A stretch of 64,000 nucleotides of DNA from Gemmatimonadota bacterium (GTDB lineage: Bacteria > Gemmatimonadota > Gemmatimonadetes > Gemmatimonadales > GWC2-71-9). The DNA is taken from contig PNAE01000007.1 of the NCBI GenBank assembly GCA_003169895.1, forward strand, positions 337,603-401,602, read 5' to 3'. The translations under genes were made by a program, and so were the position numbers. This document shows, one piece after another, positions 3,974-22,445 of this stretch (positions are counted from its first letter, which is position 1; each line of letters begins with the position of its first letter). The notes below the pieces were generated by a model that saw only the letters and a program-made list of their open reading frames with translations, searched no databases and was not told where the DNA came from.

Positions 3974-3984
3974 TGTGTACTAAT

Positions 3985-4035: not shown

Positions 4036-4045
4036 GGGGGGGCGC

Positions 4046-5403: not shown

Positions 5404-5438
5404 GGAATAATTATACATAACGCACAGACGTTTGTCAA
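5401..5438 (-). promoter_or_regulatory. consensus sigma-70-type promoter of the transposase, leaderless
   Basis: On the minus strand TTGACA (5438-5433) and TATAAT (5415-5410) are separated by exactly 17 bases. The ATG at 5403 begins six bases after the -10 box, so transcription should start at or next to the start codon. No Shine-Dalgarno sequence is present. Confidence 0.75.
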
Positions 5439-5482
5439 GGTACATTGCCTTCGCAAATCGTCAACCCTAACTCGGGGGTGGG

Positions 5483-7595: not shown

Positions 7596-7692
7596 GGCGC
7601 CCCCGTTAATTGCTAGCATCACTCACCGACAATGAGTATCGCCATATATCGGCTTTACCGCAAGGTCGCTGTCACGGCTTGCGCGGCTTGGG

Positions 7693-7759
7693 CGATACGG
7701 TGTATCGTTCCAGTGCTTGGATATGCCAACGGCCACGGGGATGATGGCCGTGGCCGTTG
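7693..7759. other. two inverted repeats upstream of the tRNA-like gene
   Basis: CGATAC-GGT-GTATCG (7693-7707) is a perfect 6-bp inverted repeat. CAACGGCCACGG (7727-7738) pairs perfectly with 7748-7759 across a 9-base loop, a 12-bp stem that ends 11 bases before the tRNA-like gene. Neither is followed by a T-run, so a simple intrinsic terminator is unlikely. The rest of 7596-7770 holds no gene I can support. Confidence 0.6.
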
Positions 7760-7770
7760 ACCGGAATCAA

Positions 7771-7861
7771 GCGGCGGTGCTGGAGTTGGTAGACAGGCCG
7801 GGAGTTGGGTCCCGGTGGGATGAGCAACCATCCCGCGTGCGTTCGAACCGCACCCGCCGCA
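7771..7861 (+). tRNA. leucine-type (class II) tRNA-like gene with an 8-nt anticodon loop
   Basis: The cloverleaf is clear. Acceptor arms GCGGCGG (7771-7777) and CCGCCGC (7854-7860) pair perfectly, with A73 at 7861. The D-stem is CTG/CAG, the long variable arm is GGGATG/CATCCC, and the T-arm is GTGCG-TTCGAAC-CGCAC. The anticodon stem CCGGG (7798-7802) / CCCGG (7811-7815) encloses eight bases, AGTTGGGT, instead of seven. The scaffold and A73 are those of tRNA-Leu, but no Leu anticodon is present: taking either T as U33 gives TGG or GGG, both proline. CCA is not encoded (ACCC follows). It could be a non-canonical or frameshift-type tRNA, or a decayed gene. Confidence 0.7.
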
Positions 7862-7875
7862 CCCACAGTACGTCG

Positions 7876-8002
7876 CCGGACCACGCTGGCAAGCGGAGTC
7901 GGTCCGGTAGAAACAGTCAGCCGAGAGAGGGGGAAGCGATGCCACACCCGCCACCATAATCCGATGATGCCGGAGGGGGTTGGTTCGCGCCAACCCCTCC
8001 GG
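7876..8002. other. two strong hairpins downstream of the tRNA-like gene
   Basis: CCGGACC (7876-7882) pairs perfectly with GGTCCGG (7901-7907) and encloses a smaller CGCT/AGCG hairpin. CCGGAGGGGGTTGG (7970-7983) pairs with CCAACCCCTCCGG (7990-8002) around TTCGCG, with one unpaired G. Neither has a following T-tract. They may be part of a structured transcript with the tRNA-like gene. No protein gene is supportable between 7862 and 8092. Confidence 0.55.
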
Positions 8003-8015
8003 GTACCACCCTCAC

Positions 8016-8066
8016 GGCGCCCGAACATTACGGCTCTGTTAGCGGATTAACAAGGCCACGGGCGCC
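8016..8066 (+). promoter_or_regulatory. structured 5' leader of the small gene at 8093
   Basis: GGCGCCCG (8016-8023) pairs with CGGGCGCC (8059-8066), and inside it TGTTA (8037-8041) pairs with TAACA (8047-8051). The nested stem ends 12 bases before the Shine-Dalgarno AGGTGG (8079-8084) of the next gene. It could be a translational control element; no known riboswitch class is recognised. Confidence 0.4.
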
Positions 8067-8092
8067 CAACCAACACCTAGGTGGACACGAAC

Positions 8093-8269
8093 ATGGGCAA
8101 GAACGAAAAGACCTCTCCGCCGGTGGCCAGTCTTGCGGCCGCCGTCCTTGCCGGGAAGAAGCCGAGCCCGGCGCAAATTCTCACCCTGGCTGGTGCGGCG
8201 CTTACTCAGGCCCCCGACCATCGTCCGCCACCGCGGACGCCGCCAAGGGCTCCGGCTAAGAAGCGGTAG
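8093..8269 (+). CDS. 58-residue conserved small basic protein
   Basis: The ATG at 8093 is chosen because AGGTGG stands eight bases upstream; a GTG at 8081 is in frame but overlaps that site. The protein begins MGKNEKTSPPVASLAAAVLA and continues with GKKPSPAQILTLAGAALTQA before a proline/lysine-rich tail. This layout, short N-K-T-S motif, Ala-rich helix and LAGAALTQ, matches a widespread family of tiny uncharacterised proteins in proteobacterial and phage genomes, to my recollection. Its last 14 bases overlap the convergent gene at 8256. Function unknown. Confidence 0.6.
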   Translation: MGKNEKTSPPVASLAAAVLAGKKPSPAQILTLAGAALTQAPDHRPPPRTPPRAPAKKR

Positions 8270-8546
8270 GCTCGGCGCTCACCTGCGGGATCGTCTCTGT
8301 CAACGGGACGACCCGCAGGACCGCGCCAACAGGGATCGTGATGATGCCGCTCCCCTGAAGCGGCACGCCCGATTCTGCAGTATTCAGGTGCGGCGCGAGC
8401 ACCTTAGCTCGCTCACCGTCCAACATCAGCCAACCTACCGACCGGCATACTAGCGCCCGGTCCTCAAACGTCCCGTCGATCTGTTGCCAACCGACCGGCG
8501 AGTGCGAGTCCTCCCATTCAATCAGAACCAGCTTCGGATCGGTCAT
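8256..8546 (-). CDS. hypothetical protein, 96 residues
   Basis: The sequence begins MTDPKLVLIEWEDSHSPVGW, followed by several short beta-like segments (ALVCRSVGWLML, GIITIPVGAVLRVVPL). It has no signal peptide or membrane helix. I recognise no named family, but the opening resembles small phage or plasmid proteins that start with an x-V-x-I-x-W-x-D-S motif. It overlaps the convergent small basic gene by 14 bases at its end. Its start lies just before the 23-bp-arm hairpin at 8558. Confidence 0.5.
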   Translation of the reverse strand: MTDPKLVLIEWEDSHSPVGWQQIDGTFEDRALVCRSVGWLMLDGERAKVLAPHLNTAESGVPLQGSGIITIPVGAVLRVVPLTETIPQVSAEPTAS

Positions 8547-8557
8547 TTACCCCGCCC

Positions 8558-8613
8558 CTGTGCGCGAAGTACATACTCCCGTCGCGCACCGGGAGTATGT
8601 ACTTCGCGCACAG
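8558..8613. repeat. inverted pair of the 20-bp island repeat forming a 23-bp perfect stem
   Basis: GTGCGCGAAGTACATACTCC (8560-8579) and GGAGTATGTACTTCGCGCAC (8592-8611) are exact inverse copies. The match extends to 23 bases per arm (8558-8580 and 8591-8613) with a 10-base loop, GTCGCGCACC. The right arm has the same orientation and the same following CACAG as the copies at 3992-4033. It ends 17 bases past the stop of the second lipoprotein copy. Confidence 0.85.
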
Positions 8614-8630
8614 CGCCGGTGGCTCAGTCG

Positions 8631-8966
8631 CTAGGTAATGGAAAGGTGCGTCGCGACCTCGTATACGAAGAGCAGGAAAATCGCGAACACCACGCCGAGA
8701 ATGACGCCTAGCGTCGGAAACGCTCGGATCTTCGGCTTGGTAATGTCTTCGAGCGCGTACGCTACTCGCTTGCAGCAAAGCGACGGCTCATGCCAGGGAA
8801 TCCCGGACACCGAGTCACGAGTGAACAGCACCGAGTCGATCTGAACCTTCGCGCCACGGTACTCGAACTCGACCATGTTGTCCGGTCGGAGCTTCGGTTG
8901 GGCAGCAACGTCGATCGGTTGCGAGCCGCCGCAACCGGCTGTTACGGCGAGGGAGCCGACAGCCAA
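8631..8966 (-). CDS. small lipoprotein with C-terminal membrane helix (copy 2, weak start)
   Basis: This is a paralogue of the gene at 4046-4414. It keeps LAVTAGCGGSQ (lipobox-like), FTRDSVSGIPWHEPSLCCK and a C-terminal helix (GVILGVVFAIFLLFVY). The two genes remain clearly alignable at DNA level, so the duplication is not ancient. The best start available is TTG at 8966; the ATG used by copy 1 is not preserved (the corresponding codons read ATT GCC CTC), so expression may be reduced. No transposase precedes it. The same 20-bp repeat lies just beyond its stop. Confidence 0.5.
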   Translation of the reverse strand: MAVGSLAVTAGCGGSQPIDVAAQPKLRPDNMVEFEYRGAKVQIDSVLFTRDSVSGIPWHEPSLCCKRVAYALEDITKPKIRAFPTLGVILGVVFAIFLLFVYEVATHLSIT

Positions 8967-9027
8967 CCCACGGATCGCGCGTGCTCGGAGGGCAATGTTC
9001 TGATCTACCTGGTTATCGGCCCGGTCA

Positions 9028-9177
9028 TCACGGCCGCTTGCGACCGATCTTCTTGATCGGCGCTCGCGGAGCCTTCTTGACGCCCGGCGACCCCGGCCGG
9101 GTCCGTTGCCCCGGAATGGTCAACGTGTCGGGCACGGGTCCCTTTCGCTTGGTCGGTCCGTCATTCGAGGGTTTCAT
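9028..9177 (-). CDS. 49-residue basic hypothetical protein
   Basis: The frame runs from ATG (9177-9175) to TGA (9030-9028) and reads MKPSNDGPTKRKGPVPDTLT, then a Pro/Lys/Arg-rich tail ending KKIGRKRP. The composition is similar to the 43-residue protein at 6628 and the tail of the gene at 8093, which suggests a shared class of tiny basic proteins in this island. No Shine-Dalgarno at ideal distance is seen (AGGAGAGG stands about 17 bases upstream). It lies directly upstream of the second lipoprotein copy. Moderate to low certainty. Confidence 0.4.
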   Translation of the reverse strand: MKPSNDGPTKRKGPVPDTLTIPGQRTRPGSPGVKKAPRAPIKKIGRKRP

Positions 9178-9279
9178 CGTGTACGAACCCGCCTCTCCTG
9201 GATTGTTGGTCGCTCGGCTTGAGTACTGAATATGTACCGCGTTCCGCGCCCGCAGAACAGGCAGCAGACGCTCAGCACA

Positions 9280-9876
9280 TCACCCAGAGCCACCACCCGG
9301 CCGGCCAGACCCCGCGAACTCCTTCCATAGCAACAGGACGGGTGCAACGATTTGCGCAGACATTCCCCAGAGGAATCCCTCGGCAAGCTGGTATCCCTGG
9401 ACCACCCGGGGTTCGCCTCGGATCTCGATCGAGCGAGCACCATATACCCCGTCCGCCGCCAAACGAGCCAACGGCAGCCAACTGGAATCGGTCACCTCGT
9501 TGCTCACACCCGGCGCGACCGCTTCGGGCAGCAGCAGCACGAAAGGTCGCACCAGGATCGGTGGCAGCGTCGGCGTCTGTGGCAGCAGGTCGTCCAGCTG
9601 GGTGCGACACCAGGATCGCTCGAGATGAATTCCGGTTTCCTCTGCCGTCTCGCGAATCGCCGTCGCCAACAAATCGACATCACCAGCTTGGCGCCTGCCA
9701 CCCGGGAAGGCGAGGTGACCCGACCAGGGGTCGCCCTCGCGTTCGGCCCTCCTGATCACCAGCAGACGATCGGGGTCAGGCGCCAGCAGCAGCGCGACGG
9801 CGGCCTCTGGACGGTCGGACGCCACAACCTGTCGAGGTGGACGGCGCGCCAGCTCGGCCAGCAAGAGATTCAGCAC
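9280..9876 (-). CDS. Nudix hydrolase, CoA pyrophosphatase-like
   Basis: The protein has 198 residues. The CoA-pyrophosphatase-type motif before the Nudix box is visible as LLVIRRAEREGDPWSGHLAF followed by PGG. The Nudix box itself includes TAIRETAEETGIHL, with the REtaEEtG core that binds divalent metal. The family hydrolyses CoA or related nucleoside diphosphate derivatives. In the first part of the box the usual Glu after G-x5 is Asp (GDVD). It starts three bases after the alpha/beta hydrolase stop, so the two are probably co-transcribed. Confidence 0.82.
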   Translation of the reverse strand: MLNLLLAELARRPPRQVVASDRPEAAVALLLAPDPDRLLVIRRAEREGDPWSGHLAFPGGRRQAGDVDLLATAIRETAEETGIHLERSWCRTQLDDLLPQTPTLPPILVRPFVLLLPEAVAPGVSNEVTDSSWLPLARLAADGVYGARSIEIRGEPRVVQGYQLAEGFLWGMSAQIVAPVLLLWKEFAGSGRPGGGSG

Positions 9877-9879
9877 GCA

Positions 9880-10716
9880 TCAATCCAGGTGGCGCGTCAG
9901 GAATCGCACGGTCGCGTCGAACAACAATTCGGTTTGGCGCGTCGGACCAGCCCAGGGATGCCGAGCGCCGAACATATGTCCGGCATCCTGGATGAAGTGC
10001 GACTCGAAGCGGGGATCCGTCGCGAGACCGGCAAGTTCATGTGCCTCCGCTATCGGAACCGTCTCGTCATCGGTGCCGTGCAGCAACAACCAGGGACGTT
10101 CGAGCACTGCCGCGGCCTTGCGGATGTCGAAACGATCGGCGTGCGCCAGCGCATCCTCCACAATTTCGTAATGCATCGGCAGTTGCTGGCCGGTTCGAGC
10201 GTTCGCGATCTCGATGGTGCCCAGCCGGCGCCACAGAGCGACCTCGGCGTCGGAGTAACGGCGAATTGTCGAGATCGGCGCCCAGGTGACCACCGCTTGC
10301 ACGGCTGGCGTCTCGCGCGCCACGCAGAGCGTCACGCCGCCGCCACGCGAGTGCCCGATGATGCCGACCGACGTGGGCGGCACCGAGCCGAGTTCACCAG
10401 CAAGCAGCTTGCTGATCACCAGTTCGATGTCGCCGACCTCGCGGGTGTACGTGTTGCGCGCAAAGCGGTCCAACCACGAAAAGTCGCCGTGCTCGTCGAC
10501 ACCCGATCCGCTGACGGACAGGCTCACGGCGGTAAAGCCGGCGCGCGACAGGCGTTCGGCAATCGGCGGGAGGAAGGCGTAGTCCTTGAATCCCTTGAAG
10601 CCATGCACGATCAACACCGCCGGCTGGGGCGCGGTGCGCGATGCGCCCCGCACATCGATGAGGATCGGGCCCAGGGCACCGGGGAGTGTGTGGCGCGTCA
10701 GGTAAGCCGTGGCCAT
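9880..10716 (-). CDS. alpha/beta hydrolase (dienelactone hydrolase/prolyl oligopeptidase-like)
   Basis: The protein has 278 residues from the ATG at 10716; a TTG six bases upstream is also in frame. The fold is shown by PAVLIVHGFKGFKDYAFLPP (oxyanion HG), the nucleophile elbow GIIGHSRGGG (Ser), the acid in LLLHGTDDETVP and the His in FIQDAGHMFGARHP. The natural substrate is unknown; the family cleaves esters, thioesters or peptides. It has no signal peptide, so it is cytoplasmic. A heptamer repeat array lies in the 115 bases upstream of its start. Confidence 0.75.
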   Translation of the reverse strand: MATAYLTRHTLPGALGPILIDVRGASRTAPQPAVLIVHGFKGFKDYAFLPPIAERLSRAGFTAVSLSVSGSGVDEHGDFSWLDRFARNTYTREVGDIELVISKLLAGELGSVPPTSVGIIGHSRGGGVTLCVARETPAVQAVVTWAPISTIRRYSDAEVALWRRLGTIEIANARTGQQLPMHYEIVEDALAHADRFDIRKAAAVLERPWLLLHGTDDETVPIAEAHELAGLATDPRFESHFIQDAGHMFGARHPWAGPTRQTELLFDATVRFLTRHLD

Positions 10717-10766
10717 AACCAAACCTAAAGGACAGGTAAGCGGGACGAGGTGACCGGTGAGACGGA

Positions 10767-10829
10767 CCTTTCACCTTTCACCTTTCACCGGTCACCTGTC
10801 ACCTTTCACCTTTCACGTCTTGCGTCTCA
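10767..10829. repeat. heptamer tandem array (CCTTTCA family)
   Basis: Nine consecutive 7-bp units can be read: CCTTTCA three times, CCGGTCA, CCTGTCA, CCTTTCA twice, CGTCTTG and CGTCTCA. They fill the gap between the LD-carboxypeptidase stop (10832) and the hydrolase start. Just left, GGTGACC GGTGAGA (10749-10762) is a pair of heptamers of opposite sense that could fold back on the TCACC units. Confidence 0.8.
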
Positions 10830-10831
10830 CG

Positions 10832-11791
10832 TCATCTCACCGCCGCCTCCAGTAACGTCAGTTCGCCATTCGTCGCGTCGAATTCCGCCATCACGCCGAT
10901 CGGCAGCGTCCACTGTTCCGGGACGTGACCGATGGGAAATCCATGTGCGACCGGAATGCGGTCCGGCTCGAAGTAGGTGCGCAGTACTTCATCCAGGCCC
11001 AGTCCGCCTTCGAAAGTCGCATGGCGCATCCGGGAAAAATGCCCGATCGCCACTCCCGCCAGTAACGCAAGCGCGCCGGCCAGTCGCAGGTGCCCCAGCA
11101 TCCGGTCGATGCGATAGAGATCCTCGCCGATGTCTTCGAGAAACAGGATCGCGCCGTCGAGGTCAGGGAAGTATCGAGTTCCGATCAATGCCTGCAGCAA
11201 CGTGAGATTGCCGCCCACGAGCCGGCCGGCGCCGCGCCCAGCGACGATCGTGGCGATGCGGCCGCGTTCAGGCACCAGTACGTCAGGCCGCACCGGCACC
11301 CGGCCAAGCGGCCCCGGTGCGGTGACATTGCCGAGCACGAGATCAAAGTGACGCCGCGAGAATTCCGGCATCGCGAAGCGCGCCATCGGACCATGGAACG
11401 TGACGACGCCGGTTTCTGCGGTGAGCGCGAGCAGCAGGACCGTGATATCGGAGTACCCGATTACCGGCTTGGGATGCGCCGCGAAGCCGCCGAAGTCCAC
11501 GCGATCGACGATCCGGTTCATGCCGTTGCCGCCACGCAGGCACCACACCGCGTCAATGCCCGGATCGGCCAAAGCGGCATTGAGGTCGGCCAGTCGTTCG
11601 TCGTCGGTGCCGCCCAGATACCCGTGCGCCTTTCCGGTATTCGGCGCCAGCACCGGCTCGAACCCGAGGGCGCGGCAGAGTTCGATGCCGCGCGTGCAAT
11701 GGTCGCGTTCGAGCAGCGGACCCGACGGCGTGAGGAGCGCCACGCGGGCGCCGGGACGGAGCCGGGGAGGAAGGATCGGCTTGGGTAGCAT
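10832..11791 (-). CDS. ldcA: LD-carboxypeptidase (peptidase family S66)
   Basis: The ATG at 11791 is chosen (MLPKPILPPRLRPGARVALL) because S66 enzymes begin close to the PG-x-R/K-V-A-L/V-x-x-P-S segment; the longer frame to 11851 would overlap the divergent gene. The protein has 319 residues. GYSDITVLL carries the nucleophilic Ser, FLEDIGEDLYRIDRM the Glu region and GVAIGHFSRM the His region of the S66 triad. These cytoplasmic enzymes release the terminal D-Ala from murein tetrapeptides during peptidoglycan recycling. Divergent from the RsbRD-N-like gene, with 45 bases between the two starts. Confidence 0.85.
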   Translation of the reverse strand: MLPKPILPPRLRPGARVALLTPSGPLLERDHCTRGIELCRALGFEPVLAPNTGKAHGYLGGTDDERLADLNAALADPGIDAVWCLRGGNGMNRIVDRVDFGGFAAHPKPVIGYSDITVLLLALTAETGVVTFHGPMARFAMPEFSRRHFDLVLGNVTAPGPLGRVPVRPDVLVPERGRIATIVAGRGAGRLVGGNLTLLQALIGTRYFPDLDGAILFLEDIGEDLYRIDRMLGHLRLAGALALLAGVAIGHFSRMRHATFEGGLGLDEVLRTYFEPDRIPVAHGFPIGHVPEQWTLPIGVMAEFDATNGELTLLEAAVR

Positions 11792-11836
11792 TCTGGCTCC
11801 GATTACGATTGATCCACTCTGCTCTGGAGACGGCCA

Positions 11837-12391
11837 TTGCGTTTGTCCCACCCGACCCAGCTGGCGGCCGCCAAGGCCACGCTCGACGCGCGCGACGCGA
11901 TGGCCGCCGAATGGGCCGATTGGCTCGTCGACCGCGCCGGTTCCCGCAGCATCCCACGTGACACGGTTGAGCGCCAGTTTCGCCTGGTGATCGGAACGCT
12001 GGTGGAAATGCTAGGTCCCCTCAAGCGCGAAGCCAAGCTCGTCTGGCAGCACGTGATGGAGCACTACGGCAGGACCGCCGCCGCACGTGGACTCGCCGCA
12101 GGTGAAGTGGTGGAAGAATTGCAGCAGCTCCGCGTGCTGCTGATCAAGTACATTGGCGGTTCCGTCGCCGCGATGCGCCCGCGCCGGGCCGTGGCCGTCT
12201 TTCTCCGGCTGAACGCGATCGTCGATCGCGGCATCGCCGCCGCCGTCGTCGGCTACACCGACGCGCTGGTGGCGTCGCTCCTGCTCATCGATCGCGAGAC
12301 GCAGCTGCTCACCGCCGCGAATGCGGATGACCTCGGCAAGCAGCTCGGCGGCCTGGAGGCTGAACTCGAGCCGTTGGCGGTGAAGCGGTAA
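11837..12391 (+). CDS. RsbRD N-terminal-domain-like protein
   Basis: The protein has 184 residues starting with TTG at 11837, with GGAGA six bases upstream. It is all-helical, with WADWLVDRAGSRSIPRDTVE, WQHVMEHYGRTAAARG and VVEELQQLRVLLIKYIG, matching the RsbRD_N sensory helical domain (PF14361) from memory. In other proteins this domain precedes a STAS or HAMP/kinase module; here no second domain follows. A role in sensing or partner-switch signalling is plausible but unproven. The C-terminal end abuts a truncated antisense secreted-protein remnant. Confidence 0.6.
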   Translation: MRLSHPTQLAAAKATLDARDAMAAEWADWLVDRAGSRSIPRDTVERQFRLVIGTLVEMLGPLKREAKLVWQHVMEHYGRTAAARGLAAGEVVEELQQLRVLLIKYIGGSVAAMRPRRAVAVFLRLNAIVDRGIAAAVVGYTDALVASLLLIDRETQLLTAANADDLGKQLGGLEAELEPLAVKR

Positions 12392-12392
12392 C

Positions 12393-12578
12393 CCGCGCCT
12401 TCTCGGGCGTGCCGAATGCAGCCGCGACGCGCTGCGCTTCGGCAATCTGATCCCGCGCCTGCTGGGTCAAGGCGGCCGGCATTGCCATGTGATCGTGTTG
12501 ATCCATCGGCATCGGAATGGTCTGCGCGTGCACCAGGGCCGGCAGCAACACGATCAATCCCGATCGGCAGAACCGCAC
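12393..12578 (-). pseudogene. truncated secreted protein remnant
   Basis: From a GTG at 12578 the minus strand encodes a signal peptide, VRFCRSGLIVLLPALVHAQ. It continues with a Met/His-rich start of a mature protein (MPMDQHDHMAMP, then RDQIAEAQRVAAAF and GTPEKAR). After TPEKAR the frame runs into the antisense of the RsbRD-N-like gene and no longer looks like protein. I read it as the 5' end of a lost gene. Beyond it, 12579-12761 holds nothing I can support except the start region of the methyltransferase. Confidence 0.4.
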
Positions 12579-12761
12579 TGACAGTCTCCTGATCTTGAGG
12601 TCATCTGTCCTGGGTCGTGCGACCGGGAACAGCCTCAGAACTGTCGCCGGCCCCGCTCGTACCGCTGCAGTTCGTGTCGCGTCGTCCGGTACCGTCCACA
12701 ACTGAATCGAGCCAGTAACCATCCCGCCGCGTGTGAATCTATCGCCGTGGCTACGGCGTGC

Positions 12762-15695
12762 ATGTCCCAGACACCTTCGGTCGATTTCGGCCGCCTGGTC
12801 CGTCATCTCGGCGGCGAGGCGTTTGCGCTGCCCATGCCTGCCGGCGATGGTGGTGAGCTGCTGCAAGTCGGACTGCTCGCAGGATTGCCGGTCTGGACCT
12901 GCACCACTCGACCTCTGGAGACGCTGCGTCACGCCCGACGTTTCGCCCGGCACGGCAAACTCGGCATAGTCCTTGGCTGCAACGTTCCGGCGGACCGGTG
13001 GCTGCTCGCGGTCACAGTGAACCCGGTCCATCTTGCGATGGTTGCGCGCGGGGACGCCGACGCGTTGCCGCTCCGACGGCTGGTCCGCGCCGCCCGGATC
13101 CCGCACACGACCCCGCTGGAGCGCGCCATCGCCTTGGCCGAGGCACTCGATGTTGATGCCGCTGGGCGGCGGACTTTTCGCCTGCTGCATCAGCTGATCG
13201 ATCGCGGCGTGTCCTTGCTGCCGACATGCGTCTCGCCGGACGACCGACACGCCTGGACGCTCGCGCAGATCACCCGGCTGCTGTTTCTCCGCTTTGTCGA
13301 ATCGGAGGGCTGGCTCGACGGCAATCCGCGATTTCTCGCCGCCGCATTCGATCGCTGCCTGATCGCCCGGCGTGATCCGACCCGTCACCTGCTGCACCCA
13401 CTGTTCTTCGGTACGCTGAACCGGGAATGGGGGCAGCGTTCCCGCTTCGCGCGCGCATTCGGCTCAGTGCCGTTCCTGAACGGCGGCTTGTTCGAGCCGC
13501 ATCCCATCGAACGGATGCACCGTTTCCGCCTACCGGTGGAGTTCTGGCGCACCGCATTTGCCGCACTGGTTGATCGTGTCGACGTCACGCTGGACGCCGG
13601 TGCGGAGGATGGCCGAGTCACGCCGGAATTGCTCGGTCGCGTGTTCGAGGGTGTGATGCATCCGGTCGAGCGGAAGCAACAAGGGACCTTCTTCACGCCA
13701 CCGGCGCTGGTCGGGGCAGTGCTGCGTGAAGCGCTGGCGTGCCATCTGGCACCGAAACTCGGGCAGAGTGAGGCCGCGGTCGAGAAATCGCTCGCCGACC
13801 CTGATGCCGGCCTGCGGCGCGTGCTGCTCGACGTGACGGTGCTCGATCCCGCGGTCGGCTCGGGCGCATTTCTGATCGGTACCCTTGAACTACTGCATGG
13901 CCCCGGCCCGCGACTGCCCGGGCGCGTGCGCCACCTGGTCACCCGGCGGCTATTCGGCGTCGACCGGCATCCGGTCGCCGTGCGAATCTGCGAGCTCCGG
14001 CTCTGGCTGGAGGTGCTGCGCACCATGCGGGGTCGTCCGGCCGGGCGGATACCGCCGCTGCCCAACCTCGACGCGAGCATCCGTGCCGGCGACGCACTCA
14101 TCGATCCGCTGTTCGGCAGCGCGATGAATGCACTAACGGCGCGTGACATTCACCACCGCCAGCGCGTCATTCTTGGCACCCATGGCGCCGCCAAGCGCGC
14201 TGCCATCGCGGACGCACGCAACGCGGAGCGCCGCGCGGTGGTGCGCTCGCTGCGCGAGCAGGAAGCCGCCGTCGAACATGGCATCGCCGAGTTGATGGCG
14301 GCAGCGCGAGCGCCAACGCTGTTCGGCGATCATCCCCGCATCAGCGCCACGCTGCGGCGTGAGCTCGAAGCGCGACGGCGACATCGAATGCAGCTACGGG
14401 TCGAACGGCGGCGCCTCGCGCGCGATCAGGCGGCGGTGCCGTTCGCCATTGCCGCCGCTTTCGCACCGATCATCGCGCAACGCGGCGGATTCGACCTCGT
14501 CGTTGGCAACCCACCCTGGGTGCGCGCCGAACGCTTGCCGCCGGCGATGCGCCGCGCGCTCGCGGGTCGCTACCGCTGGTGGCGCGGCGGGAGCGGCCCC
14601 GGATGGCGGCACCTGCCCGACCTCGCGGTGGCGTTTGTCGAACGCGGTTTCTCGCTGCTCGCACCAGGCGGAACGCTGGCATTCCTCGTCCCGGCCAAGC
14701 TTGCAACGGCGGGCTACGCCGAAACATGCCGATCGGTGCTGGCCGCGCGGTCCACCATTCATCGCGTCGCCGACCTCGGCCGCGATCCGCGCGCGGGCTT
14801 CGAGGCAACCACCTATCCGCTCGCGCTGGTCGTGTCGCGACGCCTTCCGCCACCGGGGCACGCGGTAACACTGGGACTCGGTGACGACGCGCCGGTTCAA
14901 CCGCAGTCGCTGTGGCGCGACGTCCCCGCGTGGATGACGGCGCCTGCCGAGGTGCAGCGGATCGCCGCACGGCTTGGTCGCGAACACCCCCGCCTCATCG
15001 AGCAGGTGAGTCCACAGCTCGGGATCAAGACCGGGGCCAATCTCGCCTTTCTTGACCCGCCCGAGGAACTGCGCGACTGGTGTCGCCCCGCGGTCCGCGG
15101 CCGCGACGTCCGCCCATTCCATGCTTCCGCGGGAGCGCTCCTGCTCTGGTCGGCGGATGACCGCGGCGTGCCGTGGGTACGCCTGCCGGTACCGGTGGCG
15201 CGCCATCTTGCCGAACACATCGTCCGACTACAGCGACGCGCGGACCAGCACGGCGGACCGTGGTGGCAGCTGTTCCGCACCGGCGCGTCAACCGCCGCGC
15301 ACCGGGTCGTGTGGCGAGACCTCGCCCGCGAGTTGCAGGCTTCCCTGCTGCCCGACCCGCGCGTCGTGCCGCTCAACAGCTGCTACGTCGCGGCAGTGTC
15401 GTCAGCGGCGATCGCCGAATCCCTCGTGGCGTGGCTCAACTCCGGACCGATTCGTGCGTTGGCCCGCCTGTCCGCGGAACCCGCGGCCGGCGGCTGTTCG
15501 CGATTCGCGGGACGCGCGATCGGCAACCTGCCGCTGCCAGCCGCGGTGCTCGGTCATCCGGTGCTCGCAGCATTCACCCATGCCGCCGCCGATCATGACG
15601 TCCAATCCGCGTTGGACGATTGCGCCACCGAGTTGCTCGAGCTGTCGGACGGCGAACGCGATGTGCTAATTGGCGTGGCCGCGGATCGTCGCTGA
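12762..15695 (+). CDS. class I adenine-specific DNA methyltransferase (Eco57I/DrmMI-like)
   Basis: About 977 residues from the ATG at 12762; GTG at 12747 is also possible. The SAM-binding motif I is VLDPAVGSGAFLIG (about residue 365 of the longer reading) and the catalytic motif IV is VVGNPPWVRAE (about residue 588), NPPW being the N6-adenine type. The TFFTPPALVGAVLREAL stretch before motif I is typical of type IIG/Eco57I and DISARM class-1 methyltransferases. A target-recognition-like region follows (about residues 740-960). The N-terminal 170 residues contain no PD-(D/E)xK nuclease motif I can find. Its 3' end overlaps the helicase gene by 26 bases, so the two act together. Confidence 0.82.
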   Translation: MSQTPSVDFGRLVRHLGGEAFALPMPAGDGGELLQVGLLAGLPVWTCTTRPLETLRHARRFARHGKLGIVLGCNVPADRWLLAVTVNPVHLAMVARGDADALPLRRLVRAARIPHTTPLERAIALAEALDVDAAGRRTFRLLHQLIDRGVSLLPTCVSPDDRHAWTLAQITRLLFLRFVESEGWLDGNPRFLAAAFDRCLIARRDPTRHLLHPLFFGTLNREWGQRSRFARAFGSVPFLNGGLFEPHPIERMHRFRLPVEFWRTAFAALVDRVDVTLDAGAEDGRVTPELLGRVFEGVMHPVERKQQGTFFTPPALVGAVLREALACHLAPKLGQSEAAVEKSLADPDAGLRRVLLDVTVLDPAVGSGAFLIGTLELLHGPGPRLPGRVRHLVTRRLFGVDRHPVAVRICELRLWLEVLRTMRGRPAGRIPPLPNLDASIRAGDALIDPLFGSAMNALTARDIHHRQRVILGTHGAAKRAAIADARNAERRAVVRSLREQEAAVEHGIAELMAAARAPTLFGDHPRISATLRRELEARRRHRMQLRVERRRLARDQAAVPFAIAAAFAPIIAQRGGFDLVVGNPPWVRAERLPPAMRRALAGRYRWWRGGSGPGWRHLPDLAVAFVERGFSLLAPGGTLAFLVPAKLATAGYAETCRSVLAARSTIHRVADLGRDPRAGFEATTYPLALVVSRRLPPPGHAVTLGLGDDAPVQPQSLWRDVPAWMTAPAEVQRIAARLGREHPRLIEQVSPQLGIKTGANLAFLDPPEELRDWCRPAVRGRDVRPFHASAGALLLWSADDRGVPWVRLPVPVARHLAEHIVRLQRRADQHGGPWWQLFRTGASTAAHRVVWRDLARELQASLLPDPRVVPLNSCYVAAVSSAAIAESLVAWLNSGPIRALARLSAEPAAGGCSRFAGRAIGNLPLPAAVLGHPVLAAFTHAAADHDVQSALDDCATELLELSDGERDVLIGVAADRR

Positions 15696-17805
15696 GTCGC
15701 TGCGTGTCCTGCGCCAGCCGGCGCCGACCGGCACGCAGCGTCCGGTCGTGGCCGGCGTCGATGCCACGCTGATCGCGCTGCGCGCGCTCGAGGCACCATC
15801 TCGGTATGCGCCGTCGCCGCCGTCGTTCCTTCAGCCGCACCAGCACGACCCCTGGCGCCGGATCATGAGCGCACTCGAAACCTGGCATGGCGCGTTGTTG
15901 CTGGAACGGGTGGGAACCGGCAAGACCTGGATCGCGCTCGGTGTGGCGGCGTGCGAACATCGGCCCGCCGTCGTGATCGTGCCAGCCATTCTGCAGGAGC
16001 AATGGCGCGATGCTGCGCGCCGCGCCGGAGTGACGCTGCAAATCTCGACTCACGAGCGCGCCAGCCGGGGCAACATACCGGGCACGAAAGCCGCGCTGGT
16101 CATCATCGACGAAGCGCACCGCCTGCGCGACCACGGAACCCGCCGGGTGCAGACCATCGCGCCGTGGCTCGTGGGCCGACGCGTCCTGCTGCTCACGGCG
16201 ACGCCGATCGTGAATCGCCTCGCCGACCTGATCGCCCTGCTGCGCCTGGCTGTTTCCGAGGACGCACTCGCCCTGGACGGCATCCCGCGGCTGGGCGACC
16301 TCGAACTGTTGAGCCGACCTGCCGCGGCACTGCGGCGGGTTGCGATACGGTCGTCCGGAACGGTGCCGGGAATGGCTCACCGCCGCGTGATCCCGATCAC
16401 GCCCGACGCCGACGAAAACCGCCGCGGTGCAAGTGCCGTCGCCGCAATCCGGCAGCTCGAGTTGAGCACCTGCACGGCCATCCGCCGCCTGCTTACAGTG
16501 GTGCTGCTGGACGCGGCCGCATCGAGCGACGCGGCGTTCCATCAGGCGCTCAAGCGATATCGCGCCTTGTTATTGCAGGCGCAGGATGCGGGCGGCGCGT
16601 CCCGCGCCATGCTTCGCCGGTTTGCCGGTGAAGCGCTCGATCAACTCGTGCTATGGCCGCTGCTGGCAACGGACGACCCGACCAGCGAGCTACCACTGGT
16701 GGATATCCCTCGAGTCGAACAGCTGCTCGCCGTCGGACCGAGAGATGACCACTGGATCAAGGCAGTCACGGAGCGATGCGACGACACCATCCCGACCATC
16801 TGCTTCAGTCGTCATCGCGCCACCGCGCGCCGCCTTCGCGAAGCGCTTGGCGAAGCGACCGCCTGGATTACCGGCAGTGACGCCGGCATCGGTCCACATC
16901 GGGTGGCCCGTGACGCACTGCTGACGGCGTTCGGGCCGCATCGCGGGACATGGCGTGTGCGACGGGAGGCACCGCGAATGCTCGTGGCGACCGACGTGGC
17001 GGCGGAAGGTTTGGACTTGCATGCCGCAGGCAGGATTGTGCATGTCGACCTGCCGTGGACCGCGACGCGGGTCGAGCAACGCGAAGGACGGCTGGTCAGG
17101 CTGGGCCAGCAACACGACAATGTCGAGGTCGTCGTCCGGATGCCGGCGGCGCCCATCGAGAGTGCGTTGGCACCACACGCCCGCGTCCGCCGCAAGCGCC
17201 GCGTGGCGGACGAGTGGCTTGGCGCGATCGAAATCGACGATGCTGCTGCTGGGTGCAGCGGCGATGCCGGCCCGATGGTGGCCTGCCTCCGGGACGACGG
17301 CGAGCCGGTAACACTCGTCGCGGTACGGCTGCAACGCGATGGACGCGCCGGTGCCATGCTCATGGTCCAGCGACATGGCGAGCGCTGGTTCTCCGACAGC
17401 ATTCTTGCCGACGACATCCTGCAGCGAGCGCGAACCGCGACCTCGGTGACGATCGACCCTGACCGAATCGCGGTCCAGCTCGCCGCCGCCAGTCGCGCGG
17501 CATTGGCGGCATGCGTCGCGGCCGAGCCGAATGCGTCGCCAGCTCTCGTGAACCGGATTCACCGCCTGGCGAGGGGGGCCGCGGCGAGTCGTGATGGCGC
17601 CGCCCTGCAACGCTTGGATCGCCTGCTCCGGTTTGTCGCGGCCTCACCGACCGCTGGCGCGCGGATGATCATCGCGCGCCTCGCCGATCTGGGCGACCGT
17701 GAGTTCCTCCATGCCGAAGTGCATGAGCTCGCGGTGCGCGGGTCAGTGCTGGCGACGCCGATCGCTGCGTTGCTCTTCCGTTCAGCCACATCGCCACTAC
17801 GTTGA
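15670..17805 (+). CDS. SNF2/DEAD-like superfamily 2 helicase (DrmD-like)
   Basis: The protein has 711 residues. Motifs seen are Walker A VGTGKTWIAL (81-90), Walker B IIDEAHRLRD (near 147-150), motif III LLTATPIVNRL, motif V VATDVAAEGLDL and motif VI QREGRLVRLGQ (470-480), the last being characteristic of SNF2-type ATPases. The C-terminal 220 residues lack a recognisable nuclease. It begins with TTG inside the methyltransferase gene, a strong sign of a two-component unit. The family translocates on double-stranded DNA; in DISARM class 1 a SNF2 protein (DrmD) accompanies an adenine methylase (DrmMI). No drmA, drmB or drmC homologue is present. Confidence 0.8.
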   Translation: MAWPRIVAESLRVLRQPAPTGTQRPVVAGVDATLIALRALEAPSRYAPSPPSFLQPHQHDPWRRIMSALETWHGALLLERVGTGKTWIALGVAACEHRPAVVIVPAILQEQWRDAARRAGVTLQISTHERASRGNIPGTKAALVIIDEAHRLRDHGTRRVQTIAPWLVGRRVLLLTATPIVNRLADLIALLRLAVSEDALALDGIPRLGDLELLSRPAAALRRVAIRSSGTVPGMAHRRVIPITPDADENRRGASAVAAIRQLELSTCTAIRRLLTVVLLDAAASSDAAFHQALKRYRALLLQAQDAGGASRAMLRRFAGEALDQLVLWPLLATDDPTSELPLVDIPRVEQLLAVGPRDDHWIKAVTERCDDTIPTICFSRHRATARRLREALGEATAWITGSDAGIGPHRVARDALLTAFGPHRGTWRVRREAPRMLVATDVAAEGLDLHAAGRIVHVDLPWTATRVEQREGRLVRLGQQHDNVEVVVRMPAAPIESALAPHARVRRKRRVADEWLGAIEIDDAAAGCSGDAGPMVACLRDDGEPVTLVAVRLQRDGRAGAMLMVQRHGERWFSDSILADDILQRARTATSVTIDPDRIAVQLAAASRAALAACVAAEPNASPALVNRIHRLARGAAASRDGAALQRLDRLLRFVAASPTAGARMIIARLADLGDREFLHAEVHELAVRGSVLATPIAALLFRSATSPLR

Positions 17806-17809
17806 GCCC

Positions 17810-18490
17810 ATGCCCCACTTCCAGACCGTGCTGTTCGATCTTGACGGCACGCTGATCGATTCGGTGGACCTGATCGTCGACAGTTATCATCACGTCTATC
17901 AGGTGCACGGCCTCTCGCCACGCTCGCGCGACGACATCCTCGCCGGCATGGGCACGCCGCTGCGGGTCGTGTTCGGGACCATCACCGATGACACTGGCGA
18001 GATCGATGCCTGGATCGCCACCTATCGCGCGTACAACCTCACTCACCACGACGCGCGCGTGCGTGCCTACCCGGGCACCGTCGACATGGTGAACCGGATC
18101 AAGGCGGCCGGCCACCGAGTGGGGCTCGTCACCAGCAAGAACCGCCTGGGCGCCGCGCGCGGCCTCGCGCTCGTCGGCCTCGGCGATACCATGGAAGTCA
18201 TCGTCGGCGCGGATGATGTCGTCAACCCGAAGCCGCACCCCGAACCGGTCGAACGGGCCCTCAACCAGCTCGGCATGCCCGCAGAGACCTGTCTCTTTGT
18301 CGGCGATTCGCACCATGACATCCACTGTGGCCGCAGTGCGGGTGTCTGGACCGCCGGTGTCACGTGGGGCCCGTTCGATCGCCGCCATCTTGAGATGGTC
18401 GTACCCGACTACTACTGCGATACGCCGGAGGAACTCGTCCAGCTGACTGGCGCCGCCAGCCGGCCAGGCGAGCTGCGACTAGAAGCGTAA
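17810..18490 (+). CDS. HAD-family phosphatase (phosphoglycolate phosphatase/PpaX-like)
   Basis: The ATG at 17810 lies five bases after the helicase stop; the longer frame from 17699 would overlap the helicase and lacks family similarity. The protein has 226 residues. Motif I is VLFDLDGTLIDSVDL with the nucleophile and acid/base Asp, motif II is GLVTSKNR, and motif III/IV is NPKPHPEP then LFVGDSHHDIHC. The cap helix is of subclass IA type. Such enzymes hydrolyse phosphoglycolate, pyrophosphate or sugar phosphates. Its tail meets argR convergently with 27 bases between stops. Confidence 0.82.
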   Translation: MPHFQTVLFDLDGTLIDSVDLIVDSYHHVYQVHGLSPRSRDDILAGMGTPLRVVFGTITDDTGEIDAWIATYRAYNLTHHDARVRAYPGTVDMVNRIKAAGHRVGLVTSKNRLGAARGLALVGLGDTMEVIVGADDVVNPKPHPEPVERALNQLGMPAETCLFVGDSHHDIHCGRSAGVWTAGVTWGPFDRRHLEMVVPDYYCDTPEELVQLTGAASRPGELRLEA

Positions 18491-18517: not shown

Positions 18518-18976
18518 TCATGCGACTCCGGCCATCAGCCCGCGTAATTGGCGAACGATGTGCGCCTGGGCGCCGGCATTACGCGTCGCAACAAAGATGG
18601 TGTCGTCCCCGCCGATCGTCCCGACCACCTCCGGCCAAGCCAGCAGGTCCAGTGCACTCCCAACACGTTGTGCCTCGCCCGGTGGCGTATGCAACACCAG
18701 CAGCGCATCGCCGGCGGCTTCCACCGACAGCAATGACTCTGCGATCCGGCGCAGGTTCGGGTCCACGATTTCATGGATGTGAGCGGCGGCCGGTCGCTGA
18801 TAGATACCGTCGATCTTGATCAGTCCCAGCACCGCGATGTCACGACTCACCGAACTCTGCGTCACCTCCCAGCCTTCCCGGCGGAGCGCGTCCGCAAGCT
18901 CGTCCTGGGTGCGGAGCGGCCTGGTCGCCACCAGCTCGAGAATCTTCAGATGCCGCTGGCGGCGTTCGTGGCTCAA
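18518..18976 (-). CDS. argR: arginine repressor ArgR
   Basis: The protein has 152 residues: an N-terminal winged helix (MSHERRQRHLKILELVATRP, then VTQSSVSRDIAVLGLIKIDG) and a C-terminal hexamerisation and arginine-binding domain ending in EVVGTIGGDDTIFVATRNA, the GT-x-x-GDDT motif that binds arginine. The SSVSRDI recognition helix is canonical. The start is TTG overlapping the argH stop (TTGA), making it the last gene of the operon that it probably controls through the ARG box before argG. Confidence 0.93.
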   Translation of the reverse strand: MSHERRQRHLKILELVATRPLRTQDELADALRREGWEVTQSSVSRDIAVLGLIKIDGIYQRPAAAHIHEIVDPNLRRIAESLLSVEAAGDALLVLHTPPGEAQRVGSALDLLAWPEVVGTIGGDDTIFVATRNAGAQAHIVRQLRGLMAGVA

Positions 18977-20349
18977 CGCAGCGTCCTCGCAGTGAGGTGC
19001 GCCAGCGCGCGGTCGAAACGTCGTTGTGCCGCTACGCGCCAGCGTCGGGAAGCACGCAAGCGCGTGCCAAGTGCCGATAGCGGCAGGTTGCCCAGGCCCC
19101 CGCTGCTGCCCCGCGTCGCCGCGAGGGCCGCGCCGGTGACCGCCGGCATCCGCTCGCCGCGCTCGAGGTCGGCGGCCACGTCGCGATACGCTCGCCGGAA
19201 TGGCGTGCCGCCGCGCACTCGACGCATGACCTCGTCCGTCGCGAACACCTCCGGCCGGAGTGCCGCGAGGCCGCGGGCCGCGTCAACGCCGAGCACCGGT
19301 AGCGCTGCACCCAACACCGCGAGCATATCGCGGGTACGATCGACACCGCGCCACAATGGCGCCTTGAGCAACTGGAAGTCGCGATGATACCCACTGGCGA
19401 GTTTTGCCTTGAGTGCCATCACCGTGGCAAGGTCACCCTCCAGCGCGGCCGCACGACCACGGGTCAATTCAAATAGGTCGGGATTGCGCTTCTGCGGCAT
19501 GATGCTCGACCCGGTCGACCATGCCGCCGGGAGGACGAGCCACCCGAACTCATCGGAGCTGAACAGGATTACGTCGGTCGACAACTTGGCACATTCGTGC
19601 GCCGCACCGGCACACCAGAACAGGACCTGCGCCTCCAGGACTCCACGCCCGTTCTGCGTCGTCGTCACCACCTGGTCGATACCGGCGAACCCCAGCGCCC
19701 GGGCGGCAGCTTCGCGGGCAAGCGGCAACGGGACACCGTAACCGGCTGCACTGCCGAGTGGTGATCGATCGAGCTGCGGCCAGAAGCCGACCACGCCGTC
19801 GGCGGCATCGAGGAGGCCTTCCGCGTACGCGGCGGCCCACAACCCGGCGGACGATGGCATCGCCATGCGCTGGTGCGTGTAACCCGGCCACACGGCCCGT
19901 CGGTGCTGCCGGGCGAATGCGAGCAGGGTGGCGCCGAGATCGGTCATCAGCGTGTGAAGGTCCAGCACCGTCTTCTTGAGGTAAAGACGCAGGTCCACAG
20001 CGACCTGGTCGTTGCGCGACCTGCCGGTGTGGATCCGCTCGCCGGCGGCACCGAAATGCCGCGTCAGCCAGAATTCGACGGCGCTGTGCACGTCCTCGTG
20101 CGCGGTACCAATCGCGAGCTTCCCCGCGTCGACGGCCCGCAGTGCCGCCAGGAGCGCACGGCGCATCCGGCCGCGCTCTCGCTGGGAGATGATGCGCCCC
20201 TTCGCCAGCGCCTCGACATGGCCCAGCGACCCGATCACATCCCAGCGCAGCAGTCGCGCATCAACCTCACGATCATCGCCCACCGTGTACGCCATCATCT
20301 GCCGGTCGGGTGTAGTGGTGGGTGACCAGAGCGTCTCGGCGCGTTTCAT
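18973..20349 (-). CDS. argH: argininosuccinate lyase
   Basis: The protein has 458 residues. The superfamily signature GSSIMPQKRNPD, which holds the flexible catalytic loop and Ser, is present, as are TGRSRNDQVAVDLRLYL and EDVHSAVEFWLTR. The enzyme splits argininosuccinate into arginine and fumarate, the last step of arginine synthesis. The start overlaps the argE stop (ATGA) and the stop overlaps the argR start (TTGA). Length is normal for the family. Confidence 0.95.
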   Translation of the reverse strand: MKRAETLWSPTTTPDRQMMAYTVGDDREVDARLLRWDVIGSLGHVEALAKGRIISQRERGRMRRALLAALRAVDAGKLAIGTAHEDVHSAVEFWLTRHFGAAGERIHTGRSRNDQVAVDLRLYLKKTVLDLHTLMTDLGATLLAFARQHRRAVWPGYTHQRMAMPSSAGLWAAAYAEGLLDAADGVVGFWPQLDRSPLGSAAGYGVPLPLAREAAARALGFAGIDQVVTTTQNGRGVLEAQVLFWCAGAAHECAKLSTDVILFSSDEFGWLVLPAAWSTGSSIMPQKRNPDLFELTRGRAAALEGDLATVMALKAKLASGYHRDFQLLKAPLWRGVDRTRDMLAVLGAALPVLGVDAARGLAALRPEVFATDEVMRRVRGGTPFRRAYRDVAADLERGERMPAVTGAALAATRGSSGGLGNLPLSALGTRLRASRRWRVAAQRRFDRALAHLTARTLR

Positions 20350-21386
20350 GTGAGGTACCGCTCCGCGACATCGGCGTAGAACGTCCGCGCCGCCGTCACC
20401 TCCGCGAGGTCAACCGCTTCATCGGGCGTGTGCGAGCGGCGCGACGTCCCCGGGCCGACCTTGATGGCGTCGAGGTGACGAAGAAAGCACCAATCGGAAC
20501 AAGTGGGCGACCCATATACGATCGCGTCCGGTGCCACCGCTCGCGCCACTCTGAGCAGCGCGGAATCGGGCGGAGTTTCGCACGGTACCAGGCGCTTCGA
20601 GGTCACGATCACCTCGCTCGACAATCGCTCGCGCAAGGCGGCCTCCAGCTCATCGTGCGTCCACGCGGGGGTCGAACGCACATCAAGCACCGCCTTCGCG
20701 GTGGCCGGCGTGACGTTGCGTGACACACCGGCCTCGAGCATGGTCGGCGTAACCGTGGTGACGCCGAGCACCGGATGCACGCGCTCGCCGACGATACCAT
20801 CCAACCGGACCAGGTCCGTCGCCAGCGCCGTGATGGCGTTGGGAGCACCCGGCTCGGCGTAGCCGGCGTGGCGCTGCGTGCCGTGCGCGATCAAGTCGAC
20901 CATCATCAGCCCCCGTTGTGCTACGGCGAGTTGCAGGTTGGTGGGTTCGCCCACCAGCGCCGCATCCAGTCGGCCCGCGCGCTGAACCGCCTCGGGCATG
21001 GTGGCGTGACGCGTTTCCTCACGGTACGAGAATATCGCCAGCAGGCGGCCTCGCTTCGGTCCCCCGCGCCTGGCAACATCAGCGAGCGCGTGCAACATGG
21101 CGCTCACCGACGCCTTCGCGTCACCCGAACCGCGGCCGTAGAGCCGGCCGCCCTCGATCACCGGCGCAAACGGGTCGCGCGTCCATCCATCGCCGGGCGG
21201 CACAACGTCGAGGTGTGATGCCAGCGCGAGCGTACGGCCACTCGCCTCGTCGCCCGTGCTCACTCGCACACTCGTTTCGTCCCGCACGACGTCGAGTCCG
21301 AGCTGCCGCGCCCGCAACTCGACCAACTCGGCGGCCGGTCCCTCACTCCCGCTGATCGACGGGATGGCGACCAGTTCGCGAAGCAG
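20346..21386 (-). CDS. argE: M20 metallopeptidase, N-acylcitrulline/acylornithine deacylase (ArgE-like)
   Basis: Metal ligands and catalytic residues of family M20 are seen: ALASHLDVVPPGDGW (His), YGRGSGDAKASVSAML (bridging Asp), FSYREETRH (catalytic Glu), LVGEPTNLQLAV (Glu) and GTSRRSHTPDEAVDL (His). The usual start, TTG at 21326, would remove the conserved N-terminal helix; the open frame upstream encodes IELLRELVAIPSISGSEGP. No ATG, GTG or TTG lies between that part and the upstream stop, so CTG at 21386 is proposed, eight bases after the argB stop. In a pathway with an N-acylornithine carbamoyltransferase this enzyme should release citrulline from N-acylcitrulline. Confidence 0.8.
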   Translation of the reverse strand: MLRELVAIPSISGSEGPAAELVELRARQLGLDVVRDETSVRVSTGDEASGRTLALASHLDVVPPGDGWTRDPFAPVIEGGRLYGRGSGDAKASVSAMLHALADVARRGGPKRGRLLAIFSYREETRHATMPEAVQRAGRLDAALVGEPTNLQLAVAQRGLMMVDLIAHGTQRHAGYAEPGAPNAITALATDLVRLDGIVGERVHPVLGVTTVTPTMLEAGVSRNVTPATAKAVLDVRSTPAWTHDELEAALRERLSSEVIVTSKRLVPCETPPDSALLRVARAVAPDAIVYGSPTCSDWCFLRHLDAIKVGPGTSRRSHTPDEAVDLAEVTAARTFYADVAERYLT

Positions 21387-21393
21387 CTCGATT

Positions 21394-22329
21394 TCAGCCG
21401 GCCAGGTCGACGCCGAGATAGGTCGCCTTCTCCTTCCGTCCGACGATCATGGTGCCGCAACCCGAGCCGGTGAACACCTCGAGCAGCAGTGCATCGGGCA
21501 CCCGCCCGTCGATGATGTGCGTACGCTCCACCCCGCCCGTTGCCGCGCGAACGCATGCCTCGACCTTGGGCCGCATCCCGCCCGCAAGCGCTCCGCTCGC
21601 CATCAGTTCCGCGAGGTCGTCAGGATCCGCGAACGTGACCAGGGTCGCGGGGTCGTTCCGGTCACGCAACACTCCGCCGGTGCCGGTGAGGAAGACCAGC
21701 TTCTGGGCCTGCAATGCGATGGCGATCGATTCGGCGACCGTGTCCGCATTGACGTTGTAGACGTTGCCCTCCCGATCACCAGCGAGCGACGACACGACCG
21801 GGACGAACCGTGCCTCCATCAGTGTCCGCAGCACCCGCGGATCTACGACGTCGATGTCGCCCACGTGGCCATAGTCCACCAGGCGCTGGACGCCCGCGTC
21901 ATCGGTGACCATGACGGGACGGCGTCGACGCGCGGTGAGCAACTCCGCGTCGACCCCAGATAATCCGGTAGCCTGCACGCCGGCCCGATGCAGCGCCGAC
22001 ACCAGCTTGGTGTTGAGCAGGCCGCGATACACCATGGTGACGACCTCGAGCGCGCTGTCGTCCGTCACGCGACGCCCGGCGATCATCTCCGGCTCAAGCC
22101 CGAGTCGCCGGGACAGCGCCGATGCTTGGGGCCCGCCGCCATGCACCACGACCAGCCGGATCGACAGTGACGCCAGCAGCGCCAGCTGTTCCGCCACCTG
22201 ATCGAGCTGGTGCTGGTCGGCGAGCAGCTCGCCGCCGAGCTTCACGACGAACACATGGTCGCGATAAGCACGCACATAGCGCAGTGCGCCCCTCAGACCG
22301 GTGATGCCTTTGGTTGAGTCGATGGTCAA
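21394..22329 (-). CDS. argB: N-acetyl(acyl)glutamate kinase
   Basis: The protein has 311 residues. FVVKLGGELLADQHQ gives the phosphate-binding Lys-Leu-Gly-Gly, and LVVVHGGGPQASALS the acylglutamate-binding glycine loop. Later NVYNVNADTVAESIAIAL and VFLTGTGGVL are typical of amino-acid kinases. The enzyme phosphorylates N-acylglutamate at the gamma-carboxylate. The start is TTG at 22329 and the N-terminus carries about 28 residues before the kinase core. About 100 bases separate it from argF', filled by an inverted heptamer repeat. The 3' end meets the argE gene with no canonical start codon. Confidence 0.92.
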   Translation of the reverse strand: MTIDSTKGITGLRGALRYVRAYRDHVFVVKLGGELLADQHQLDQVAEQLALLASLSIRLVVVHGGGPQASALSRRLGLEPEMIAGRRVTDDSALEVVTMVYRGLLNTKLVSALHRAGVQATGLSGVDAELLTARRRRPVMVTDDAGVQRLVDYGHVGDIDVVDPRVLRTLMEARFVPVVSSLAGDREGNVYNVNADTVAESIAIALQAQKLVFLTGTGGVLRDRNDPATLVTFADPDDLAELMASGALAGGMRPKVEACVRAATGGVERTHIIDGRVPDALLLEVFTGSGCGTMIVGRKEKATYLGVDLAG

Positions 22330-22354
22330 GATGGCGCCCTCAAGAACAGCTGTT

Positions 22355-22445
22355 AGCCATGGGCCATGAGCCCCAGGCGGTCAGCTCGTTGATCAACGTC
22401 AGGGTTCTGGCCGCGACTACCGTCAACGGCTCATGGCTCATGGCT
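22355..22445. repeat. inverted heptamer repeat between argF' and argB
   Basis: AGCCATGGGCCATGAGCC (22355-22372) is the inverse complement, with one mismatch, of GGCTCATGGCTCATGGCT (22428-22445). Each arm is itself a run of 7-bp units (AGCCATG GGCCATG; GGCTCAT GGCTCAT). The right arm covers the argF' stop codon. The pair could fold into an 18-bp stem around a 55-base loop and tune expression within the operon. Confidence 0.75.

Follow-up and report, generated by a model that had tools for sequence, protein, structure and literature searches.

A nuclease-free adenine methyltransferase and SNF2 ATPase gene pair, core to the Gemmatimonadales and most likely descended from a PLD-SNF2 and methylase pair

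Restriction-like systems are usually patchy in their distribution and mobile. Dam and CcrM are core orphan adenine methylases, which are found lineage-wide, are inherited vertically and have no partner nuclease. In DISARM class 1, a SNF2 helicase (DrmD) and an Eco57I-class adenine methylase (DrmMI), the same combination as in the locus described here, are accompanied by DrmA, DrmB and DrmC, and DISARM that lacks its PLD protein can defend without an obvious nuclease. BREX-related Type 2 systems combine an HKD-Swi2/Snf2 protein with a DUF1156 methylase, DUF499 and DUF3780 (PMC12839542). ARMADA is composed of a BrxHII-like helicase, a PglX-like methylase and a YprA helicase; its protection against phages was validated and needs the enzymatic motifs (PMC12458937). 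Among the papers searched, none dealt with a methylome or a defence role of the pair in Gemmatimonadota.

The pair is located in a 64,000-nucleotide stretch (the window) of contig PNAE01000007.1 (positions 337,603 to 401,602) from assembly GCA_003169895.1 of a member of the Gemmatimonadales, and its features are collected in Table 1. An earlier note, made from the sequence alone, had described a two-gene methylase and SNF2 helicase locus with overlapping reading frames. Both the ORFs and the profile searches (Pfam and PADLOC) agree with that assignment, as the methylase matched Eco57I (2.9e-19) and N6_Mtase (1.4e-6) and the helicase matched SNF2-rel_dom (1.8e-10) and Helicase_C (3.5e-10). The methylase may start at the ATG at 12762 and not at the GTG at 12747. 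The PAVGSGAF and NPPW motifs given in the note are present with invariant catalytic residues and, in alignments of 30-40 relatives, the key motif residues of both proteins were found to be invariant or nearly so. The structural model of the helicase matches SNF2 chromatin remodellers over 376 aligned residues, with Z 25.4 and rmsd 3.5.

Table 1. Positions of the gene pair, its motifs and regions, and the adjoining gene in the window
Feature	Position	Strand	Remarks
Adenine-N6 DNA methyltransferase, Eco57I class	12747..15695	+	982 aa; from ORF and Pfam/PADLOC
Methylase N-terminal alpha/beta domain, ~aa 1-125	12747..13121	+	Poor conservation; weakly REase-like arrangement
Motif I DPAVGSGAF, SAM binding, aa 367-375	13845..13871	+	D367, P368, A369, G371, G373 and F375 invariant (31 sequences)
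Motif IV NPPW, catalytic adenine-N6, aa 588-591	14508..14519	+	N588-W591 invariant
Putative target-recognition region (TRD), aa 725-935	14919..15551	+	Conservation near that of the catalytic core in the clade
Methylase/helicase overlap, 26 bases	15670..15695	+	In-frame TAA directly 5' of the TTG start
SNF2/SWI2-family ATPase	15670..17805	+	711 aa; N-terminal PLD nuclease of relatives absent
Walker A GTGKT (helicase motif I), aa 82-86	15913..15927	+	G82, G84 and K85 invariant
Walker B DEAH (helicase motif II), aa 147-150	16108..16119	+	D147, E148 and H150 invariant
Helicase motif VI QREGRLVRLG, aa 470-479	17077..17106	+	Q470, R471, G473, R474 and R477 invariant
Variable helicase C-terminus, ~aa 520-711	17227..17802	+	No conserved nuclease residues
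HAD-family phosphatase, PpaX-like	17810..18490	+	Begins 4 nt past the helicase stop

The best PADLOC profiles for the pair are DrmMI and DrmD. Scores of the best-named profiles (DrmD, DrmMI, DpdE and PglX) fall far below the curated cut-offs where such exist: the DrmD equivalog scored 78.8 bits (cut-off 610) and the equivalog for BREX PglX/BrxX 28.4 bits (cut-off 400). The absence of drmA, drmB and drmC recorded earlier was borne out, with no drmA or drmC among the scanned neighbours of the pair and no MZB (DrmB-type, DUF1998) domain anywhere in the genome; the control search gave MZB matches in 8 of 14 genomes. Membership in DISARM class 1 was ruled out on these grounds (DrmD score, no MZB, no drmA or drmC beside the pair), and the DISARM connection suggested by the note falls with it.

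Genomic analysis revealed that the pair is core to the order and is not a sporadic defence island. A profile search of Gemmatimonadales genomes at least 95% complete recovered the methylase in 93/105 genomes and 41/43 genera, usually as a single copy, and the frames being open in these 93 genomes rules out chance ORFs; both genes are real. For comparison, the type I restriction protein HsdR was found in 31 of the same 105 genomes. In a phylum-wide scan, 144/160 genomes of the order (at least 90% complete) contained the methylase, compared with just 18 of the roughly 135 genomes that lie outside it. Both genes occur in nearly all of 60 relatives searched. Among the order genomes (at least 95% complete) tested for both, a hand count gave 66 with both genes, five with neither, two with the methylase only and none with the helicase only; most losses take out both genes. 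Loss in 12/105 genomes, of which seven are small (1.8-2.8 Mb), shows that the pair is dispensable. PglZ (PF08665) was considered as a second defence-gene control and dropped, since it matches in 90/105 genomes. Nearly all of these matches score ~45-80 bits in frames mostly of 520-700 aa, and one is of BREX strength; the protein is probably PorX-like, a core protein with a PglZ domain, and not part of BREX. One such domain, in a 650-aa frame, was observed at G000:C8:189647-190228.

Synteny was studied in 41 loci, the window and 40 others no longer than 20 kb each, by clustering their ORFs. The helicase is present in 40 of these methylase loci and is adjacent to the methylase in 39. An overlap of the two genes is possible in 35/38 loci. 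Nine loci have exactly 218 nt between the methylase stop and helicase motif I, and nearly all of the remaining loci that lack an N-terminal extension have 159-258 nt. The overlap, from which the note suggested a fixed stoichiometry, is a conserved arrangement. In the exceptional locus L109 (genome G051; 3959-15567), ~11.6 kb of apparent insertion separates the genes, and in L086 (genome G107) the methylase is a 1251-aa ORF and the helicase is undetectable. Recurrent neighbours across families are NUDIX, alpha/beta hydrolase and LD-carboxypeptidase genes upstream and a HAD gene downstream, the HAD cluster being a conserved neighbour found in 24/41 loci. An arginine-synthesis cluster with argR at its head (18518-26247, - strand) follows the pair in the window; argR/argH adjoin the pair in close relatives only. 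Elsewhere in the window, the region 4411-6627 holds an IS1595-family transposase and, next to it, two proteins that resemble a toxin-antitoxin pair (DUF433/HTH and PIN-like DUF5615), and a tRNA-like ARAGORN match with an undefined anticodon (7771-7863) is probably spurious.

Both genes are under purifying selection, with dN/dS between pairs of relatives of 0.13-0.27 (methylase) and 0.18-0.31 (helicase); these values are rough where dS exceeds 1, as between the window and L090. Most GTDB families come out as single groups in the maximum-likelihood trees of the two proteins, which shows vertical co-inheritance of the pair. One branch of the methylase tree (SH-aLRT 97) parts the rows with an active PLD nuclease from the disarmed rows, and the helicase tree agrees (PLD group SH-aLRT 99, with one change between PLD and disarmed), both trees being without an outgroup root.

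In other phyla, Bacteroidota, Cyanobacteriota, Chloroflexota and archaea included, the homologous methylase adjoins or lies near a SNF2 protein of 1050-1170 aa with an N-terminal PLD nuclease. Of the helicases submitted to Pfam, PLDc_2 matched 4/4 of the PLD type and 0/5 of those without the domain, HxK and GSSN were present in all 31 tabulated PLD rows, and the best PADLOC profile of the PLD-type helicases is C3a139 'HKD+Snf2'. A sister lineage within the class has an equivalent domain in six loci, where it either is part of the helicase or forms a separate ORF of 179-193 aa that lies between the methylase and helicase genes. When it was compared with the active PLD domain, hhalign gave 97.7% across 170 columns, and 0.2% for the reversed control. 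In all six, HAK of the active site is changed to SPD, DPD, TPD or RPD, with Lys turned to Asp and His replaced, and the second motif, GSSN, is changed to GAHY, GAHF, GPHY or GALY. As both motifs are replaced, catalysis by the PLD mechanism is impossible in this domain. The dead-PLD ORFs (L133:5066-5620 and L195:2962-3498) keep motifs of their own, PDF at the former HxK site and a GxxYF-type motif at the former GSSN site, which suggests a new role and not decay.

The PLD region is absent from the helicases of the Gemmatimonadales, and the strict HxK-x4-D motif was found in 0/39 Gemmatimonadota core helicases. In the window, the stop codon directly before the helicase start leaves at most 81 residues ahead of motif I, into which the PLD domain of the relatives cannot fit. 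The cutter appears to have decayed in steps, since it is active in the relatives from other phyla, inactivated in the sister lineage and missing here; loss and not gain of the domain is read from the dead domain and the shape of the trees. A 155-aa N-terminal extension of some helicases (family f9, L120 and L122) was considered as a candidate eroded PLD domain, but its hhalign match to the active PLD was not significant (0.3%) and that to the dead-PLD set reached only 23.7%. Separately, a four-gene operon was observed in three Gemmatimonadota genomes (L212:2298-11341, L213:8068-17003 and L219:7750-16623), in which a ~1065-aa SNF2 protein is followed by ORFs of ~250, 650 and 1000-1070 aa. The SNF2 protein of L212 scored 360 bits against C3a139, and the operon is apparently a separate accessory system.

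Other regions of the two proteins were examined for a nuclease. In the methylase N-terminal domain a conserved D/E/K set is absent from the alignment of relatives, which argues against an active PD-(D/E)xK nuclease. The model of this domain is confident (pLDDT 85) and has no clear structural match: Foldseek returned nothing at E <= 0.001, and VIA-align gave weak Z scores of 4.5-4.6 with DrdV (Z 4.5, rmsd 4.7, 100 aligned) and a Holliday-junction resolvase, matches that include PD-(D/E)xK folds. These being too weak, a nuclease fold is not claimed. A loose D...ExK count (20/27 PLD-active and 3/39 disarmed methylases) was set aside as composition-dependent. Nor does the alignment of the helicase C-terminus show a conserved acidic/Lys set; its model is a beta-meander with helices, partly of low confidence, and the region was barely covered by the fold search. 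The note's statement that neither protein shows a PD-(D/E)xK or PLD motif is correct. In the putative TRD, the ratio of TRD to core identity was 0.78-0.96 in disarmed methylases versus 0.57-0.75 in PLD-active ones at equal core identity, a difference that alignment error in the more diverse group may widen. A comparatively constant TRD fits a fixed target motif, although as an argument for constant specificity it is indirect.

What the pair does can be argued in several ways. The chances are about even that it is a disarmed, vertically inherited pair of modification enzyme and motor acting as an epigenetic module, which is likelier than a barrier without a nuclease. The conserved overlap and the co-loss of the genes lead us to infer a complex of methylase and helicase. 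The methylase would mark one conserved adenine motif chromosome-wide, and the co-translated SNF2 ATPase would travel on double-stranded DNA at or near the marked sites, where it might strip or reposition bound proteins, or locate unmodified sites and pass them on for methylation. The pair would thereby mark the genome (control of regulation, replication or repair) and not cut it. A fuller account is more tentative: an order-wide epigenetic writer and remodeller would have arisen when the nuclease of a restriction-like pair was first inactivated and then lost, methylase and SNF2 motor would together mark and remodel chromosomal DNA in a housekeeping role, and the sister lineage would be an intermediate with a repurposed dead-nuclease domain. 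Against an epigenetic role, BREX can defend without an obvious nuclease, so that the lack of one leaves room for defence; the dN/dS values and vertical inheritance also fit a stable immune barrier, the pair is dispensable, as its loss in 12/105 genomes shows, and an unlinked nuclease could act in trans. If the module is epigenetic, it would be a case of a SNF2 motor in bacteria that is linked to a methylase and has been kept in dozens of genera.

The competing idea of an antiviral or anti-plasmid barrier that does not cut is rather unlikely. Methylation would label self, and the SNF2 motor would block replication or expression of unmodified incoming DNA, as BREX is thought to do. The closest profiles are indeed those of defence proteins (DrmMI, IIG, DrmD and DpdE), the ARMADA helicase/methylase system protects against phages (PMC12458937), and BREX-related Type 2 employs an HKD-SNF2 protein with a methylase (PMC12839542). 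However, the pair is found almost throughout the order, mostly in single copy; it is syntenic and passed on vertically, its TRD is comparatively conserved, and no defence genes were seen among the scanned neighbours in the window (Pfam, PADLOC). Moreover, a mark common to all members of the order would not distinguish phages that arrive from related hosts, which tips the balance towards the epigenetic module without proving it. If the pair is defensive after all, it would be a two-gene barrier without a nuclease. An ordinary restriction system whose split effector is supplied in trans is improbable. The separate PLD-like ORF between the genes of the sister lineage could be seen as a precedent, and the genome encodes two PLDc_2 proteins (492 and 757 aa, with two PLD matches each), but that ORF is catalytically dead, the two proteins are roughly 240 and 970 kb away, and no third gene is conserved order-wide besides neighbours of apparently unrelated function. 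Least credible is a decaying remnant of DISARM or another larger defence locus, which the note had entertained and for which the lack of a nuclease and of drmA/B/C nearby, and the SNF2 and methylase content of DISARM class 1, could be cited. Intact motifs, purifying selection in both genes and full-length open frames kept in most genomes of the order (~90%) contradict it, and the nearest nuclease-bearing relatives are PLD-SNF2 and IIG-like pairs, not DISARM. The note's suggestion of a minimal defence or epigenetic system survives in both of its readings, the epigenetic one being graded likelier.

Among known systems, Dam and CcrM resemble the methylase of the pair in that it is lineage-wide, vertically inherited and has no cognate nuclease that could be found. 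Unlike them, it is a large enzyme of the Eco57I/IIG-like type that contains a recognition region of its own, is regularly accompanied by a SNF2 protein and is kin to a restriction-like pair. ARMADA likewise joins a SNF2-type helicase without an obvious DNase to an adenine methylase, whereas the pair has two genes only, with no third helicase recognised among the Pfam-scanned neighbours. BREX-related Type 2 shares the logic of an HKD-SNF2 protein and an N6-methylase with the PLD-active relatives (PMC12839542); in contrast, the window methylase has no DUF1156 match (Pfam), the HKD is absent, and DUF499 and DUF3780 were not found among the scanned neighbours. The closest likeness is to the pairs of a PLD(HKD)-SNF2 protein (PADLOC C3a139 'HKD+Snf2') and a type IIG-like methylase (REase_MTase_IIG, PDLC03596), whose homologous genes lie adjacent or nearly so in many phyla, archaea included, and which form the nearest group beyond the disarmed clade in both trees. 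As in these, a homologous methylase and a SNF2 ATPase are encoded together in the window; the N-terminal PLD nuclease with HxK and GSSN, which they carry, is missing from the window helicase, and whereas they are scattered over phyla, the pair is core and syntenic. Most likely, the locus is a nuclease-free relative and descendant of such a PLD-SNF2 motor and IIG-like adenine methylase pair that became fixed in the ancestor of the Gemmatimonadales, a restriction-like system whose cutter decayed stepwise and which apparently turned core throughout an order of bacteria.
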